Assembly: GCF_000020485.1 (NCBI RefSeq)
Contig: NC_011899.1
Span: forward strand, 1,148,501 to 1,212,500
DNA length: 64,000 nt
Direction of reading: 5' to 3'
Origin: Halothermothrix orenii H 168
Lineage (GTDB): Bacteria; Bacillota; Halanaerobiia; Halanaerobiales; Halothermotrichaceae
Shown: positions 5,717-13,928 of the stretch, piece by piece
Layout: each line of letters starts with the position of its first letter
How positions within the stretch are numbered: the stretch's first letter is position 1
Notes under the pieces: generated by a model
The model's input: the letters and a program-made list of their open reading frames with translations, nothing else
Told to the model about the DNA's origin: nothing
Database searches by the model: none
Position numbers and translations under genes: made by a program

Positions 5717-7810
5717 ATGGCATCAACTTTCAATGCTTATAAAAAGCAAAGTGAAGCAGGTACTTATGAAAACCGATTGCTTAAGGTGTGTTTAAAACTA
5801 TTTAATATTAATCATTATATTAATGGAAAAGGATTTATTGAATTAAACTGGAAGTCAACAAAAAGAAAGGGTTTAATTTTTTTTAGGGAAGATATTGAAA
5901 AAACCCCTGAAATAGACCCTGCTGAATCTGAAATTGATTTTATTGTCACTGTATTACTTCCCGGTGCTAAAATTGATTATAATAATGTTAAAATATCCTG
6001 CAAAGACCAGAGAATAATAACCTGGATCCCGGTTGAAGTAAGTGAAAAAGAATTAGTGTTTATTTTGGATGAATCTGAAAACGAGTTGAAAACAAAAAAA
6101 TTACTTAAGCAGTTATACCTTAAAGGAGTAATTAAAAATTATAAACATGAATATAAAGATTTTAATAAGAATACATGTCATGGTATTTTGGAAGAAGTAG
6201 TGAAAGATGTTCTTGATAAAACCTATTATAGACATCCACCGGGGTCAAAGATGGCTTTTGAAGATATGATTTACAGTGAAATTAAAGAGGTTTTTGAAGA
6301 ATATAAAATTTTTGATGATTTTTATGAAGAGTTGAAAAAAGGTAATTTACATTCAATAGATAGGGAGGTTTATCCCTTTTTCAGGGATAAACCTTATGGC
6401 ATCCCACGTAAAGCAATTAATTATATGATATTAGCTGCCCATGACCGGGGTTTTTGCAGGCTTTATAAAAAAAACGGCCAGATTATTGTCTTAAATAACT
6501 ACAAAGATAATGTGGAAGAAAACCTGGCCAGAATTAAATCTAAAGATATAGAATTTGTAGGAAAAGGAGAAACCGTTGCTGAAAGAGATTGGAAAGAATG
6601 CCAGCTTATATTAAAAGAGTTTGGATACAGTATTACGGGGAATCTTACTTTAAAAAAACAGGATAAATGCTGGGAAATGCTGGTTAATATCCAGAATAAT
6701 ATGAAAGAGGAACTTGAGCATGCCATCAGAATTAATTCTGAACTTTGTTACCTTCTAGAAGAAGCAAAACAGGTTAAAGAAATAAATAAACCTCTATTTA
6801 AACTAAATCATGTGATGGAACAGGATTTTTACAGGTTGGATAATGATTCTTATGATGGAATAAAAAAATTTATAAATCTGTTGTATTCTACATACGGCAA
6901 TGTAAATAGCTTTAAAAAAGAACTAAAAGAGGTAAAAGAGCTTCTTTATTTTGTTCGTATGAAAAATAACAGGGTTCTGGCTGAAGAATACTATTATTTA
7001 AAAAAAATATCATTACCATTACGTGGGTATGAAGATTTAAGGATGGCCCTTATAACCCTTTTAAAAAAAATATCAAATTTGAAAGTGATGGTAAGTAACC
7101 AGGAAAACTTTAAATCATTTCTTGAAGAATTAAGTCAGTTTAAAGATAGATATAAAAAACAGTATTTGAAAGAACACTTGAAATATCAAAGAGAACTGGT
7201 TAGTTTTACTGAGAAGTTACGCTCATTAAAAGAATATGAAGCCCTGAGGTTATTATCCGGTATAAAGGTTATCAGGGTTGCCTATAATATTAAACCAATT
7301 AAAAAATATATTGATACTTTTTTTCCAGGTAAATGTCAGGTCGATAACCTGGATCAGCTCTTAGATAAACAGCCCCGGTGTAATTGTGGTTTTTCCCTGG
7401 GGGAGGTTTCGACAATTCCCTCTTTGCAAAAAATTAAACCAATGCTTTTAAAAGGAGTTAAAGAATATATTAAGAAGTTACATACTCCTAAATTTAAATC
7501 ATTAATTCAAGATTATATTCAGAAAAAACCGGATTCACTTTTAAATACATTTAATAAATGTGAAAAATTATATGACAAAATAGAATTAATAAATCCAACC
7601 CTTATCAAAGAAATTAATAAAGCTCTGAACTGTACTTATACAATTAAGGTTTCATGGCAGGACCTTGGTGAATCTCTGAAGGGCTCCTATCCCGCTAGCA
7701 ATTTAGATACTGTTAAGGATAAATTGGAAGAAAGAGTAATTGAAATCTTAAAACAGAAAGAAAGCTCAAATGACCTTAATTTAGATAATATAATTATAAA
7801 TTTAATCTAA
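5717..7810 (+). CDS. large hypothetical protein resembling the distal part of DUF6079/PglY (BREX-type) proteins, no ATPase domain
   Basis: This 697-residue protein has no Walker A motif and no membrane segment. Three features recall the C-terminal half of DUF6079/PglY-BrxC proteins of BREX phage-defence systems: the segment DKPYGIPRKAINYMILAAHD followed by a short GQIIVLNN strand (about 224-260); a cysteine pair CNCGFSLGE near 553; and a closing region SLKGSYPAS ... IIINLI. Long helical, coiled-coil-prone stretches lie at about 330-520. Normal family members are about 1200 residues with an N-terminal P-loop NTPase, so this would be a stand-alone tail. No other BREX gene is present. The match is from memory of family patterns; function is not known. 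Confidence 0.5.
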   Translation: MASTFNAYKKQSEAGTYENRLLKVCLKLFNINHYINGKGFIELNWKSTKRKGLIFFREDIEKTPEIDPAESEIDFIVTVLLPGAKIDYNNVKISCKDQRIITWIPVEVSEKELVFILDESENELKTKKLLKQLYLKGVIKNYKHEYKDFNKNTCHGILEEVVKDVLDKTYYRHPPGSKMAFEDMIYSEIKEVFEEYKIFDDFYEELKKGNLHSIDREVYPFFRDKPYGIPRKAINYMILAAHDRGFCRLYKKNGQIIVLNNYKDNVEENLARIKSKDIEFVGKGETVAERDWKECQLILKEFGYSITGNLTLKKQDKCWEMLVNIQNNMKEELEHAIRINSELCYLLEEAKQVKEINKPLFKLNHVMEQDFYRLDNDSYDGIKKFINLLYSTYGNVNSFKKELKEVKELLYFVRMKNNRVLAEEYYYLKKISLPLRGYEDLRMALITLLKKISNLKVMVSNQENFKSFLEELSQFKDRYKKQYLKEHLKYQRELVSFTEKLRSLKEYEALRLLSGIKVIRVAYNIKPIKKYIDTFFPGKCQVDNLDQLLDKQPRCNCGFSLGEVSTIPSLQKIKPMLLKGVKEYIKKLHTPKFKSLIQDYIQKKPDSLLNTFNKCEKLYDKIELINPTLIKEINKALNCTYTIKVSWQDLGESLKGSYPASNLDTVKDKLEERVIEILKQKESSNDLNLDNIIINLI

Positions 7811-7877
7811 TAAAAAGGAATTTAATATTTAAATAGTGAATTTATTAGTAGAGAGTATAAAAAGGAGGTAAATACTG

Positions 7878-9173
7878 GTGAAAATATTAATAAAAAATGT
7901 TGATGTTATATATACAGCTGATAGCAACAGAAGTATTATTAAAAATGGTTATATTATAATTCAGGATAATAAAATCAAAGAAATAAATGATATGGATAAT
8001 TTAGTGTATCAGTCTAATGATTTTGATGATGTAATAAGTGGAAAAGGGAAGATGGCTTTACCTGGACTGGTTAATGCCCATACCCATTCAGCCATGACCC
8101 TGTTGCGGGGGTTTGCTGATGATATGCCTTTACATAAGTGGTTGCAGGAAAAAATATGGCCTTTTGAAAAAACGCTAATCCCTGAAGATATTTACTGGGG
8201 TGCAAAACTGGCTATACTGGAAATGATCAAGACAGGTACTACTACTTTTGCCGATATGTATTTTGAAATGGGACAGGTTGCAAAGGTGGTAGAAGAAGGA
8301 GGCCTTCGTGCTGTTTTAAGCCAGGGTCTAATTGAGGCCAATGATGGAGAAGAAGGATTAAACAGGGCTTTAAAATTCTGTCTTGAATGGAATAACCGGG
8401 CTGATGGGCGTATTTTAACAATGCTGGCTCCCCATGCCCCTTACACCTGCTCACCTGATTTTTTCAGAAGAGTGGTTGATTTATCACAGGAATATAACCT
8501 CGGCATACATACCCATATCGCAGAGACAAAGGAAGAGTTTCAGCAGATTAGGGAAAAGTATGATTGTACCCCTTTACAATATTTAGAAAAAACAGGTGCC
8601 CTTAAAAGGCCTGTTCTGGCTGCTCATTGTATTTATATTACAGAAGAAGATATGGATCTTATGGCTCAGAAACCGATCGGAGTGGCCTATAATCCCCAGA
8701 GTAATATGAAACTTGGAAGTGGTATTGCTCCGGTAACCAGGATGTTAAGTAAGGGTATTAAAGTAGGGATTGGAACAGACGGTACCTCCAGTAATAACAA
8801 TCTGGATCTTATTGAAGAAGCAAGGAGTGGCTCCTTTTTACAAAAGGTGAATGACCTTGATTCAACTGCTTTACCTGTTGATACTGTTTTAAAGATGTTG
8901 ACTGTTAATGGGGCGAAAATACTTGGTTTTGATAAACTCGGAGTGTTAAAGGAGGGTTATCTGGCCGATATTATTTTAATAGGATTAAATGAATCAACAT
9001 TCTATTACCCCCACTATAACAATCTTTCAAATCTGTTTTATGCCGGTAGTGGTAATGATGTTACTACGGTAATTGTAAATGGGCGGGTAATCATGAAGGA
9101 TAGAGAAGTTTTAACTATAAATGAGGAAGAAGTATATTATAAGATTGAAGAAATCGCCCGCAGAAAGCTATAA
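7878..9173 (+). CDS. mtaD: 5'-methylthioadenosine/S-adenosylhomocysteine deaminase (amidohydrolase family)
   Basis: This 431-residue metal-dependent hydrolase fits the MtaD/SsnA/TrzN group of the amidohydrolase superfamily. The metal ligands are visible: NAHTHSAMTLLRG (HxH, about 67), HTHIAETKEE (about 211), AAHCIYI (about 250) and GTDGTSSNNN (about 299). These enzymes deaminate methylthioadenosine or S-adenosylhomocysteine to the inosyl forms in purine and methionine salvage. The start is GTG 7878 behind AAAGGAGGT. No other salvage gene is adjacent, so the substrate is inferred from the family only. Confidence 0.88.
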   Translation: MKILIKNVDVIYTADSNRSIIKNGYIIIQDNKIKEINDMDNLVYQSNDFDDVISGKGKMALPGLVNAHTHSAMTLLRGFADDMPLHKWLQEKIWPFEKTLIPEDIYWGAKLAILEMIKTGTTTFADMYFEMGQVAKVVEEGGLRAVLSQGLIEANDGEEGLNRALKFCLEWNNRADGRILTMLAPHAPYTCSPDFFRRVVDLSQEYNLGIHTHIAETKEEFQQIREKYDCTPLQYLEKTGALKRPVLAAHCIYITEEDMDLMAQKPIGVAYNPQSNMKLGSGIAPVTRMLSKGIKVGIGTDGTSSNNNLDLIEEARSGSFLQKVNDLDSTALPVDTVLKMLTVNGAKILGFDKLGVLKEGYLADIILIGLNESTFYYPHYNNLSNLFYAGSGNDVTTVIVNGRVIMKDREVLTINEEEVYYKIEEIARRKL

Positions 9174-9305
9174 AGTTTCCCATGAATTACAACTTATTAC
9201 AGGCAGGAATTACACCTTTTAGAAAGAATTATGTATTAAATTAAGCAGGGAGAAATATAATGTAGTATATTAATTATGAAAACAGGATAGAAGGGAGAGG
9301 AGATT

Positions 9306-10028
9306 ATGATAAACGTATACTGCTGGAGATGTGGTACCAAGGTCAGTAAGAAGGATATTCTGGGTTTAGGTCATTTTGACCAGCAGATTGGTAAGTATCA
9401 GGGAAAGAAGTTTATTGCTTTTAAATGTCCCAAGTGTAAAAAAGCCAGATATCAAATACTCGATACTGACCTCTTTTCATTTCAAAAGAAGACTTCGCAA
9501 AAATTTAAGAATTCTCCCGGGGTAAATAATGAGGCTGGAATTGACATAGATCAGGTTATTGATTTTTATAAAGTATTAAATGATATAGATACAGTAGATA
9601 ACTTTCTTGAAAAATGTGAAATGGCTTCTGATACAATTAGTACTGAACTGGATAAACCAATTGTTCAGCCTTTAGATGTTTATAATCTTTTCTGTGAATT
9701 GAATACAACTAATGACAAGAGACTGATGATTTTAACACTGGATGAAGATAATTATTTGATTACATGGGAATTTCTGGGTGAAGGCACTAATAAGCCAATT
9801 AAACTGGATCCGAAAACTATTTTTCACACCTCGTTTTTACTTGAAGAAAAGACTTCAGTTATAATTGCCGAAAACATGAATGATAATTTTACCAGACCAT
9901 CCCAGAAAGATGTTCTGGTTACAAAACGACTGGTAAAAGCCGGCAAAATTCTGGGAATTGATTTTCTTGATCATATTGTCATTGAGGCTGATGGATACCA
10001 CAGTTATGATCAGTTAAATTTAATTTAG
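9306..10028 (+). CDS. zinc-ribbon protein fused to a degenerate RadC-type JAB domain
   Basis: Residues 1-55 carry two CxxC pairs (CWRC at 6-9, CPKC near 46), a zinc ribbon. Residues about 130-240 follow the RadC/JAB pattern: LTLDEDNYLI, then SVIIAENMND, then DVLVTKRLVKAGKILGIDFL and DHIVIEADGYHSY. In true RadC/JAB proteins the middle block reads HNHPSG and supplies the HxH zinc ligands; here it is ENMNDN, so the catalytic histidines are lost, while the later aspartate in QKDVLVT is kept. Thus it looks like a binding rather than a hydrolytic domain. Typical RadC has an N-terminal helix-hairpin-helix instead of a zinc ribbon. Function unknown. Confidence 0.6.
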   Translation: MINVYCWRCGTKVSKKDILGLGHFDQQIGKYQGKKFIAFKCPKCKKARYQILDTDLFSFQKKTSQKFKNSPGVNNEAGIDIDQVIDFYKVLNDIDTVDNFLEKCEMASDTISTELDKPIVQPLDVYNLFCELNTTNDKRLMILTLDEDNYLITWEFLGEGTNKPIKLDPKTIFHTSFLLEEKTSVIIAENMNDNFTRPSQKDVLVTKRLVKAGKILGIDFLDHIVIEADGYHSYDQLNLI

Positions 10029-10085
10029 AGTAATTATCTGACTTATAAAGGTTTTTTAAAAAAATATTAAAAAATATGATTACTT

Positions 10086-10117
10086 AAAACCTGTCTCTTC
10101 AGAGGCAGGTTTTTTTA
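10086..10117 (+). terminator. intrinsic terminator after the RadC-like gene
   Basis: AAAACCTGTCTC and GAGGCAGGTTTT pair around a TTCA loop (with one G-U pair) and run into a T tract. Confidence 0.85.
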
Positions 10118-10341
10118 ATGTGCAAAAATCATACACAATTTTTTGGGTAGTTAAAAAAAAAAACCATAAAATCTTATTATTAATATGAAATCTATCTTGT
10201 AATAAAAAAATCTAAATATTATACAAGGTTATTGAGGCTTTCGTGTGCCTTTTAAATGATATAGTCGCAGGCCTAACATATTCTTTTGTTCTATTTTATT
10301 AGAGAATGATATATATTTTAATAAAAGGAGGATAAAGTATT
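10118..10341. other. AT-rich intergenic region before the VWA gene
   Basis: This stretch, with the adjoining terminator, makes a gap of over 300 bases between genes. It is AT-rich with A and T runs. A short segment near 10230-10280 is more mixed in composition and contains GAGGC, GTGTGCC and GCAGGCC. I could not fold it into any riboswitch class I know. The last bases hold the AAAGGAGG site of the next gene. Confidence 0.4.
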
Positions 10342-11017
10342 ATGAATAAACAACTGAGGGTGTTACTGGGAATTCTTTTAATAATTGGATTATTTCTGGG
10401 TTCATATGAAGGTATCTGGAAACAGGGGGCAAAAAAAGTTTCAGGACCGGATATTAAAAAGGCAGACAATAATGAAATATACCTTGAAGTCATCTGGGAC
10501 GCCTCCGGTAGTATGTGGGGGAAGGAATATGGAGTTGAAAAAATTATCAGGTCACGGGAAGTATTAAAAACCTTTACTGATAAACTCTCGGGTGAAATCA
10601 ATATGGGTTTAAGGATATTTGGGGCAAGGAGAATAGGGGATTTAAAAGACTCATTTCTGGCAGTCCCCTTTAATGAAAAGAATAAAGATAAAGTCTTAAA
10701 CTTTATAGCCAATGTTAAACCCCTGGGGAAATCACCGATCGGGTATTCATTACTGCAGGCAAAAGGAAGATCTGGCAGGGGTTTATGGAAAAAAATATGT
10801 ACTGCTGGTAAGTGATGGGATAGATAACGGAAAAATACCAACCAGAGAGGTTGTTGAGGATCTAAAGGAAAATAATATAGTCTTACATATTATTCATATC
10901 GGTGATATACAGGATCAGGAACTTAAATCAAAACTTAAAGAAATGGCCAGCATTACCGGTGGTAAGTATTTTACATATAAAGACCATGAAAATGTTATTC
11001 CAACCCTTCAGCAATAA
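10342..11017 (+). pseudogene. von Willebrand factor type A (VWA) domain protein, interrupted by a single-base frameshift
   Basis: The first frame (10342-10815) gives a signal-anchor (MNKQLRVLLGILLIIGLFLG) and the start of a VWA domain with the MIDAS motif DASGS near residue 55. It runs out of frame in the run of four A at 10761-10764. A second frame picks up exactly there (KEDLAGVYGKKYVLLVSDG...) and ends at 11017 with the rest of the domain, including the SDGIDNG metal-site loop. Removing one A joins QAK to EDLAG and restores one protein of about 224 residues. It may be a true pseudogene or a sequencing error in a homopolymer. VWA proteins of this kind are extracytoplasmic, protein-binding or stress-related. 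Confidence 0.75.
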
Positions 11018-11044
11018 ATTTATATTTATTGCTGTTTTTTTTAT
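11009..11044 (+). terminator. intrinsic terminator overlapping the VWA stop codon
   Basis: CAGCAATAAA and TTTATTGCTG form a perfect 10-bp stem around TTTATA, followed by eight T. The stop codon TAA lies in the 5' arm. Confidence 0.88.
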
Positions 11045-11174
11045 TTTTATAGCAGGACATTTAATAAAATAACGGAAATATATAATAAAGGTTTTGTACA
11101 ACTATAAGGGGTATTATTTATTTTAAGCTGGATATTACTATTAATAGGATTGTTATCATTGAGGAGGTAAACAT

Positions 11175-13928
11175 ATGACTAGAAGTTTAAAAATACTGGT
11201 GGCTATAATAACCCTGGTGATATTTGTTTTTTTGATTATTGTTTTTTCGGGATCTAAGATTTATACTGATTGGTTATGGTTTAAAAACCTGGGATTTACC
11301 CATACTTTTTTAACAATGTTTTTTACAAATTTATGGTTAAGATTACTGATTGGTATTATTTTTACAGCTTTTATCTTCATAAACTTATTATTTACCAGAA
11401 AACCCCTGATGGAGTTTTCTAAATTAAAAAATGATGATAATGTTGAATCCCTGTTTACCGGGAGCGGTGACAACCTGATAAACTGGGTCACTAAAAAAAG
11501 GTTAAACTATACATATTTTTTTGGTAGTGTTATTCTGGGGTTTTTATTCAGTTCCATAAGTCAGGATCTCTGGAAGGTTGTTTTGAAATATTTAAATAAA
11601 ACTCCTTTTAATACAGTCGATCCTATTTTTAATATAGACCTTGGTTTTTATATTTTATCTCTACCTTTCTTTAATTTTATCAGGGAAATGGGTATGGTTT
11701 TAGTAATACTGACCTTAATTGTAATTGCCATTATATATACCATTGCTTCTGGTGTCAGGTCTTTAGGAGAAATGAAATTTAAATTATCAAACAGGGCCAA
11801 AGCCCATATTTCCATATTGATAGTTCTCTTTCTCTTTTTAAAGGCCTGGGATTACAAATTGAAAATGTATAATTTGCTTTACTCACCGAGGGGAGTTGTT
11901 TTTGGTGCCAGTTATACAGATATCCACGCAAACTTATTGGGATTAAAAATATTATTCTGGATTGTAATTTTAATTGGGGTTTTATTATTAATTAATCTTT
12001 TCCGGAAAAGTTACAAAATCATACTCTGGAGTCTGGGGATCTGGATTTTGGCTTCATTTATTTTTGGCAGTGTTTATCCAGGTCTTGTTCAAAGGTTTGA
12101 AGTTGAACCCAATGAAGTTGCTAAAGAAAGCAAATATATTAAGTATAATATTGATATGACCTTAAAGGCCTATGGACTTGATAATATCACTATCGAGGAA
12201 TTTAAGTTGTCAAATGATTTAAATCAGCAAATTATTGAAAATAACCGGGAAACAATTGACAATATCAGGTTATGGGATAACCGTCCTTTACTGTCTACCT
12301 ACAGGCAGCTTCAGGAACTCAGACCCTATTATAGATTTCCTAAAGTTGATATAGACCGGTATAATATAAATGGACAATACCGCCAGGTGATGCTCTCACC
12401 AAGGGAAGTTGACCAGAGCAGGTTATCATCAAGGGCCCAGACCTGGATAAATAAAGTATTAAAGTTTACCCACGGGTATGGCCTGGTAATGAATCCGGTA
12501 AATGAAGTTACTGAAGAGGGTTTACCAAGGTTTTTTATTAAAGATATTCCCCCCAAGGTAAATGTAGACCTCCGCCTGGATAATCCTTCTATCTATTATG
12601 GAGAATTAACTAACAATTATGTTATTGCCAATAATAAATCTCAGGAGTTCCATTATCCCCTTGGAGATAAAAATATATACACCAACTATAATGGGTCCGG
12701 TGGTGTTCAGCTCGACAGTTTTTTCAAAAAACTGGTTTATGCTCTCAGATTTAGTAATTTAAAATTTTTACTGGCAGATGATATCACTGCTGAAAGTAGA
12801 ATTATGTATTACCGTAATATAAGGGACAGGGTTCGTCGGGTTGCTCCCTTTTTATCCTTCGACGGGGATCCCTATCTGGTTATCAGCCAGGGACGCCTTT
12901 TCTGGATACAGGATGCATATACAACAACTAACAGATACCCTTACTCCCAGCCAGTTAACCGGTACAACAATTTTAATTATATAAGGAATTCTGTTAAAAT
13001 TGTGATTGATGCATTCAATGGATCTATGGATTTTTATGTTATAAATAAAAATGATCCCCTTGCGGTAACATATCAAAAAATATTCCCTGATCTGTTCAAA
13101 GATGGGGAAGAGATGCCAAAAGACATAAGAAACCATTTACGTTATCCTCAGGATCTCTTTGTCATTCAGTCCCGGATTTACAGCGTTTACCATATGAAGG
13201 ACCCGATGGTCTTTTACAATAAAGAAGAACAGTGGACGATTCCCAATGAGAATTATGCCGGTACCAGTATTACAATGGACCCCTATTATATTATTATGGA
13301 ACTTCCGGGCAAGGATGTATCTGAATTTATTTTAATGTTACCCTTTACTCCGGCAACAAAAAATAATATGATTGCCTGGATGGCTGGTCGTTCTGATGGT
13401 GATAATTATGGGGAATTGATTGTTTATCGTTTTCCCAAAGATACTCTTGTTTATGGGCCCATGCAAATAGAATCCAGGATTGACCAGAACACTGAAATAT
13501 CACAGCTATTGACACTCTGGAGTCAGCGTGGTTCAAGGGTCATAAGGGGTAATCTTCTTGTTATTCCCATTGACAATTCAATCCTTTATGTAGAGCCACT
13601 TTACTTACAGGCTGAAACCAGTGAACTTCCTGAATTAAAAAGGGTCATTGTTTCTTACGGGGACCGGGTTGTTATGGCCAGGACCCTGGATCTGGCCCTG
13701 GAAGGGATTTTTAAAGGTGAACTAGATCTGGTTGATGATGGGGGTATAACAGAGCCTGATGAGGAAGTTATTCCCGGGACCTTACAGGAATTGGCTTCAA
13801 GAGCTTTTGAATTATATACCCTCTCCCAGGAAAGCCTGAAGGAAGGCAACTGGTCTGAGTATGGTAGATTACTGGAAGAACTACAGGAGGTCCTTCAACA
13901 GTTAAGGGATAAAACACAAATAGAATAA
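11175..13928 (+). CDS. UPF0182 family large membrane protein
   Basis: The 917-residue product begins with about seven hydrophobic segments in residues 1-310 (the first at 7-26, then DWLWFKNLGF, a typical UPF0182 block). A long non-membrane part rich in aromatic residues follows (LSTYRQLQELRPYYRF, FTHGYGLVMNPVNE, PFTPATKNNMIAWMAGRSDG). These conserved strings define the UPF0182/DUF PF03699 family of bacteria and cyanobacteria, whose function is not known. The length and full alignment suggest an intact gene. The ribosome site GAGGAGG lies before the ATG. A 37-base gap to the M16 pair allows co-transcription. Confidence 0.92.
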   Translation: MTRSLKILVAIITLVIFVFLIIVFSGSKIYTDWLWFKNLGFTHTFLTMFFTNLWLRLLIGIIFTAFIFINLLFTRKPLMEFSKLKNDDNVESLFTGSGDNLINWVTKKRLNYTYFFGSVILGFLFSSISQDLWKVVLKYLNKTPFNTVDPIFNIDLGFYILSLPFFNFIREMGMVLVILTLIVIAIIYTIASGVRSLGEMKFKLSNRAKAHISILIVLFLFLKAWDYKLKMYNLLYSPRGVVFGASYTDIHANLLGLKILFWIVILIGVLLLINLFRKSYKIILWSLGIWILASFIFGSVYPGLVQRFEVEPNEVAKESKYIKYNIDMTLKAYGLDNITIEEFKLSNDLNQQIIENNRETIDNIRLWDNRPLLSTYRQLQELRPYYRFPKVDIDRYNINGQYRQVMLSPREVDQSRLSSRAQTWINKVLKFTHGYGLVMNPVNEVTEEGLPRFFIKDIPPKVNVDLRLDNPSIYYGELTNNYVIANNKSQEFHYPLGDKNIYTNYNGSGGVQLDSFFKKLVYALRFSNLKFLLADDITAESRIMYYRNIRDRVRRVAPFLSFDGDPYLVISQGRLFWIQDAYTTTNRYPYSQPVNRYNNFNYIRNSVKIVIDAFNGSMDFYVINKNDPLAVTYQKIFPDLFKDGEEMPKDIRNHLRYPQDLFVIQSRIYSVYHMKDPMVFYNKEEQWTIPNENYAGTSITMDPYYIIMELPGKDVSEFILMLPFTPATKNNMIAWMAGRSDGDNYGELIVYRFPKDTLVYGPMQIESRIDQNTEISQLLTLWSQRGSRVIRGNLLVIPIDNSILYVEPLYLQAETSELPELKRVIVSYGDRVVMARTLDLALEGIFKGELDLVDDGGITEPDEEVIPGTLQELASRAFELYTLSQESLKEGNWSEYGRLLEELQEVLQQLRDKTQIE

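Follow-up and report, generated by a model that had tools for sequence, protein, structure and literature searches.

A zinc-ribbon-like module fused to a RadC-like JAB domain that lacks its zinc histidines in Halothermothrix orenii

One gene of Halothermothrix orenii, here called ZnR-JAB, joins four N-terminal cysteines to a RadC-like C-terminal half in which the zinc-binding H-N-H reads E-N-M, and this raises the question of what such a protein is kept for and whether it descends from an enzyme. The gene lies in the window, i.e. the whole stretch of 64,000 nucleotides that was analysed (G000:C1:1148501-1212500), and is an open reading frame with an ATG start, whose parts and neighbours are collected in Table 1. 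The terminator scan gave 7 terminator-like sites in positions 7700-11300, against a shuffled mean of 1.9.

Table 1. Features of the H. orenii ZnR-JAB locus (positions of the window) and RadC-like frames lacking HxH in family f4 (positions of their own loci)
Feature	Position	Strand	Basis
Amidohydrolase, MTA/SAH-deaminase-like, conserved upstream neighbour	7878..9173	+	structure relative, synteny
Ribosome-binding-like GGGAGAGGAG	9293..9302	+	read from sequence, 5' of ATG
ZnR-JAB gene, 240 aa	9306..10028	+	ORF and Pfam
N-terminal four-cysteine zinc-ribbon-like domain, residues 1-54 (C6, C9, C41, C44)	9306..9467	+	conservation, model
Linker, residues 55-117, with conserved 'DQVIDFY..L..I.TV..FL..C' stretch	9468..9656	+	conservation; model uncertain here
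RadC-like JAB domain, residues 118-240	9657..10025	+	Pfam, structure model
E189-N190-M191 replacing zinc-binding H-N-H	9870..9878	+	alignments
Intrinsic-terminator-like hairpin 3' of ZnR-JAB gene, 12 pairs	10086..10113	+	terminator scan
UPF0182 protein, conserved downstream neighbour	11175..13928	+	synteny
HxH-less RadC-like frames, f4	L082:800-1231, L083:1198-1614, L084:1066-1470, L085:801-1286, L021 (second frame, 144 aa)

At the level of the JAB domain, the C-terminal half belongs to the RadC family and is predicted to adopt a JAB/deaminase-like fold. Pfam RadC (PF04002) matches residues 121-236 with E 9e-24 and 84.2 bits against a cut-off of 22.1, covering profile positions 3-118 of 121, and the closest solved sequence is RadC 2qlc (phmmer, E 5e-8). 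In an AlphaFold2 model built from 8 sequences, residues 111-230 reach ten-residue block means of 62-82, with an overall mean of 62.2, a pTM of 0.49 and no confident modelling of residues 54-112. On this model Foldseek ranked 2qlc first (E 1.1e-7), and so did VIA-align (Z 15.1, rmsd 3.0, 118 aligned), where the next entry was 9ea4 with Z 8.0. The RadC likeness claimed in an earlier note on this DNA is thereby borne out, and the structure prediction that it had proposed as a check returned the JAB fold. The NCBIfam RadC equivalogs stay far below their cut-offs and match in the JAB part only (NF000642, 71.2 of 180 bits; TIGR00608, 66.2 of 133.85). RadC (UPF0758; PF04002, NF000642, TIGR00608) has the JAB/JAMM domain and the 2qlc fold in common with ZnR-JAB, but it possesses an HhH N-terminus and the zinc histidines, whereas ZnR-JAB has a zinc-ribbon-like N-terminus and has lost the histidines. 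ZnR-JAB is a variant within the JAB/RadC kind and not a separate kind.

The CxxC...CxxC of the N-terminus is formed by Cys 6, 9, 41 and 44, the first three of which are kept in all 17 aligned members and the last in 16 (G025 has CPCS). Modelled alone, the N-terminus is three-stranded; its ten-residue blocks as far as residue 50 have a pLDDT of 71-85, and the values fall below 50 from residue 54 on (mean of the model 55.9). Pfam zinc-ribbon matches were sub-threshold only, no HhH family occurred among the seven Pfam matches to ZnR-JAB up to E 10, and the best entry in a Foldseek search restricted to the N-terminus was Cren7 at E 0.25, which we count as no match. TerB, the best hit in the profile comparison with solved structures (E 0.027), was not accepted as a relative. 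With the four cysteines present and HhH unmatched in Pfam, a zinc-ribbon-like module in place of the HhH, as originally suggested, is the description that we retain.

A profile of this N-terminal module had matches in 21 of the 59 class genomes, namely in 13 of the order Halanaerobiales, 6 of family f145 and 2 of family f9, and in 20 of the 21 the module is fused to the JAB half. In the remaining genome, G001, the same position between mtaD and UPF0182 is taken by the zinc-ribbon module without a JAB half (L045:2994-3320, 109 aa). G006 gave a weak match (E 0.004), which belongs to a different protein. Of the 38 class genomes without the module, 30 have a completeness of 90% or more and a contamination of 5% or less. 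In a phylum sample of 398 genomes four matched, all of the same class and the H. orenii genome among them; the profile used there, A2, contained no f9 or f145 sequence and yet found f9. This sample is a better test of spread than the genome_contigs scan with A1, which returned 8 loci, all titled as Halanaerobiales or Halanaerobiaceae MAGs, and which is a weak negative on wider spread because sequences of f9 and f145 would escape its two peptide patterns. Two more searches within the class, covering 4 and 22 genomes, gave no match, and such empty results carry no weight. A mobile or phage origin was considered and is not supported, as no place in 50,697 phage records (11 matched) covers 80% of ZnR-JAB; the same holds for a plasmid origin among 72,556 plasmid records (84 matched). 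The phage and plasmid matches listed concern mainly the JAB part, and a scan of viral contigs with two short patterns found no ZnR-JAB relative.

The zinc site could be read in 17 of the 21 module genomes, since in G028, G432 and G433 the gene is cut by contig ends and G001 has no JAB half. In H. orenii HNHPSG is replaced by ENMNDN, as had been noticed from the sequence, and the change is of the same length, in register and ungapped both where phmmer aligns the protein to 2qlc and where 46 RadC-like frames of the fetched loci are aligned to a profile. The protein therefore departs from the catalytic RadC/JAMM motif HxH...S..D in its HNH, now ENM, and keeps the S and D, as well as the middle Asn and the later P-S-x-x-D. 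Of the 46 rows, 22 are canonical or mobile RadC and 17 are ZnR-JAB; the rest are five further degenerate RadC-like frames, a RadC-like DinG and a domain that lies in a frame of 1145 aa. As counted with a profile that was built from HNHPS-bearing sequences and so leans towards intact ones, HNH is present in 22/22 canonical or mobile RadC, in the DinG and 1145-aa-frame rows, in none of the five other degenerate frames, and in only two ZnR-JAB members, both of family f9, while the other 15 lack both histidines. Because every canonical or mobile RadC frame keeps the HNH, the loss is not a trait of RadC at large in these bacteria. Both histidines are gone in all 11 readable members of the order, H. 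orenii included, so that the loss is conserved among homologues with the same fusion and is neither a local change nor a sequencing artefact.

The two histidines being lost, the JAB half most likely, as judged from sequence, binds no catalytic zinc and carries out no hydrolysis. The term 'dead JAB fold' used in the earlier note can be kept as regards the fold and the loss throughout the order, with inactivity as a prediction, but it does not describe the family from its start, as the f9 members G186 and G434 read HNHF... with the S and D in place and thus combine the same fusion with a JAMM-type motif that is intact. An alternative is that ZnR-JAB is still an enzyme and works through the Asp/Glu that remains, the Asn and new acidic residues, either with another metal bound to them or metal-free. 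Such an enzyme could explain why the middle Asn (N190 in H. orenii) is invariant in 17/17 members and why the RadC Asp position holds an acidic residue in all 15 HxH-less members (D in 12, E in 3); moreover, phmmer aligns E155 of H. orenii with the Glu of RadC, in a column that shifts by one residue among the RadC sequences of the 46-row alignment. However, the histidine positions are variably replaced, the first by Q in 8, D in 4, E in 2 and R in 1, the second usually by a hydrophobic residue (I, V, F, M or L; otherwise T, with an alignment gap in one row), and of 11 order members two have Asp and three have Lys instead of the Glu on the preceding strand, so that we regard a persisting enzyme as unlikely.

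As G186 and G434 keep HNH...S..D on the same fusion, the joining of ribbon and JAB domain most likely predates the histidine loss, and since f9 shares the same ribbon and upstream gene, the pairing is most likely the older event and the loss of catalysis the younger one. In a JAB tree with RadC, for which long-branch warnings concern L085_degRadC and G025, the 17 ZnR-JAB rows form a group of their own, separate from RadC (95/97), and f9, f145 and the order form an open fork, as they do in a quick UPF0182 tree. The unrooted full-length tree splits f9 plus f145 from the order with full support and places two f5 members on long branches. A root between these two sides would mean that the loss happened twice; the histidines were thus lost either once or twice. 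Vertical inheritance is the best reading of this history.

It could also be that the gene is decaying, with a drifting JAB half and a zinc ribbon that alone carries the remaining function. The G001 gene, where about 140 bp to the next gene leave no room for a JAB half, the absence of the module from 38 of 59 class genomes and the two long f5 branches would agree with this. Nevertheless, in 17/17 full-length members the reading frame of the JAB half continues uninterrupted as far as the conserved last residues, and the NG86 dN/dS of this half is low where computable, namely 0.035, 0.013 and 0.082 for the three f145 pairs out of four that gave a value and 0.055 for the f9 pair, which is intact, although these ratios are rough because dS is near or beyond saturation. 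Saturated dS left 6 of 14 domain comparisons undefined, among them the JAB half of H. orenii and G008, so that constraint on the H. orenii copy has to be read from conservation alone. Amino-acid identity in that pair is 65% in the JAB half and 70% in the N-terminal part, and in the f5 pair G027/G030 it is 87% and 65%, respectively. All in all, decay seems improbable.

The neighbourhood of the gene is conserved. All 21 module genomes have an amidohydrolase gene upstream, which is encoded on the same strand and separated from the module gene by no other homologous gene; the distance in G434 is about 470 bp. The amidohydrolase has the MTA/SAH deaminase 4f0r as a solved relative (E 2.5e-81) and remains below the cut-off of every one of the 24 NCBIfam models listed; 'mtaD' is therefore used here as a label for MTA/SAH-deaminase-like genes and does not imply a substrate. 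In G186 the amidohydrolase is preceded by mtnA and ahcY (TIGR00512 and TIGR00936, both above cut-off), which together form a methionine/SAH salvage cluster, and G434 has homologues of the genes of this region in the same order. UPF0182 follows the module gene in 15 of 21 genomes, and in six of the 15 a von Willebrand-A gene intervenes; in the remaining six of the 21, a contig end comes first in four and other genes follow in the two f9 genomes. In H. orenii the von Willebrand-A gene is split over two overlapping frames (10342-11017; 157 and 101 aa), and in relatives (L034-L038, L091, L092) it is one open frame of 230-253 aa; the split is either a real break or a sequencing error. Further upstream, a 697-aa protein (5717-7807) has no Pfam match at E 1e-5 and no NCBIfam match at 1e-10, and shorter homologues occupy the same place in relatives (cluster c6).

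At E 1e-60, 45 of the 59 class genomes have mtaD-like genes, among them all 21 with the module, which leaves 24 that have such a gene without the module (G412 has only a distant match). In all five such loci inspected (L089-L093) the module gene is missing between mtaD and UPF0182; these two adjoin in G023, G037 and G024, and in G022 and G002 nothing but a von Willebrand-A-like gene separates them. The ZnR-JAB gene is therefore dispensable.

H. orenii also possesses a conventional RadC of 240 aa with HNHPSG kept (L001:1492-2214), flanked by maf-like and mreB-like genes (named by eye), and the search for a full-length radC elsewhere in the genome, as once advised, was thus successful. RadC was matched in 59/59 class and 8/14 control genomes, and a separate strong match (E 6.1e-42 or better) exists in 58 of the 59, the exception being G429 (57% complete), whose sole RadC match is ZnR-JAB itself. 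A further RadC-like protein of H. orenii is the RadC-like DinG (L003:1309-), which resembles ZnR-JAB in having a RadC-like JAB domain joined to another domain, but its HNHPSS is intact and the other domain is a DinG-type helicase; such helicases with an N-terminal RadC-like domain are described in the consulted part of PMC11981726. In G034 a RadC-like domain with HNHPSG lies inside a 1145-aa frame (L086:3-3437), to which the polyvalent proteins treated in the sections consulted of PMC5512222 are perhaps akin. Five other HxH-less RadC-like JAB frames of 135-162 aa were seen in four genomes of family f4, which is probably Halanaerobium (Table 1). Two of them, in L082 and L083, share the strand of an intact mobile RadC, start 15 bp past it and are possibly the inactive member of an active/inactive pair; a scan of viral contigs with the L082 copy found no relative.

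MPN-minus proteins such as Rpn8 have a JAB fold without the JAMM ligands and serve as non-catalytic subunits, and in such dead/active pairs Rpn8 steers Rpn11 and KIAA0157 steers BRCC36. Like ZnR-JAB, the eukaryotic MPN-minus proteins Csn6 and Rpn8 lack the JAMM ligands on a JAB fold, but they stand outside the RadC clade and match ZnR-JAB only weakly in structure. For Csn6 this class is given in the portion used of PMC3431379. A dead ZnR-JAB might accordingly pair with an active JAB protein, the canonical RadC, and steer it. The model of ZnR-JAB does match MPN-domain complexes with Z of about 5-6, and the two f4 gene pairs would suit this idea, but a Z under 8 may reflect only a common arrangement, and in the 20 module genomes with a strong RadC match RadC lies on another contig or more than 350 kb away. 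The co-occurrence with a separate RadC in 58/59 genomes carries no weight here because RadC is found throughout the class. We thus consider such a partnership rather unlikely, and we would give equally little credence to the broader proposal that bacteria independently evolved MPN-plus/MPN-minus-style pairs in the RadC clade, with ZnR-JAB and the f4 HxH-less copies as partners that position or regulate an active RadC.

Taken together, we think that ZnR-JAB is probably a pseudoenzyme that derives from an active ZnR-JAMM ancestor and whose JAB half is now a non-catalytic binding module under purifying selection. The ancestor would have consisted of a four-cysteine zinc ribbon, a linker and an intact RadC-type JAMM domain, encoded downstream of an MTA/SAH-deaminase-like gene; the two zinc histidines would then have been lost in Halanaerobiales and in family f145, and the JAB half would have been kept as a folded binding module beside the zinc ribbon. 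A protein without zinc and catalysis in its JAB half may act as a binder or adaptor, with nucleic acid, the products of neighbouring genes or canonical RadC as candidate partners, and the ribbon may carry the core contact, as one relative, G001, keeps the ribbon only. The nucleic-acid or peptide binder guessed at in the earlier note would be a candidate role of this kind. RadC-clade JAB domains are described, in the parts consulted of PMC5512222 and PMC3482391, as missing the ubiquitin-tail groove and as possibly processing nucleic acids; by analogy with these views, a putative nucleic-acid-linked target is somewhat likelier than a ubiquitin-like one.

The activity of RadC itself is unsettled, and a nuclease or nucleic-acid role has been proposed (PMC5512222 and PMC3482391, parts consulted). 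In an open-licence literature library no report that joins RadC, JAB domain and zinc ribbon was found, which is weak evidence of absence. ZnR-JAB appears to be a clean, vertically kept and predicted pseudoenzyme of the RadC clade with natural intact relatives. As its intact and lost-site members occur naturally on the same fusion and beside the same upstream neighbour, they offer a ready comparison for the role of the JAB domain apart from catalysis.
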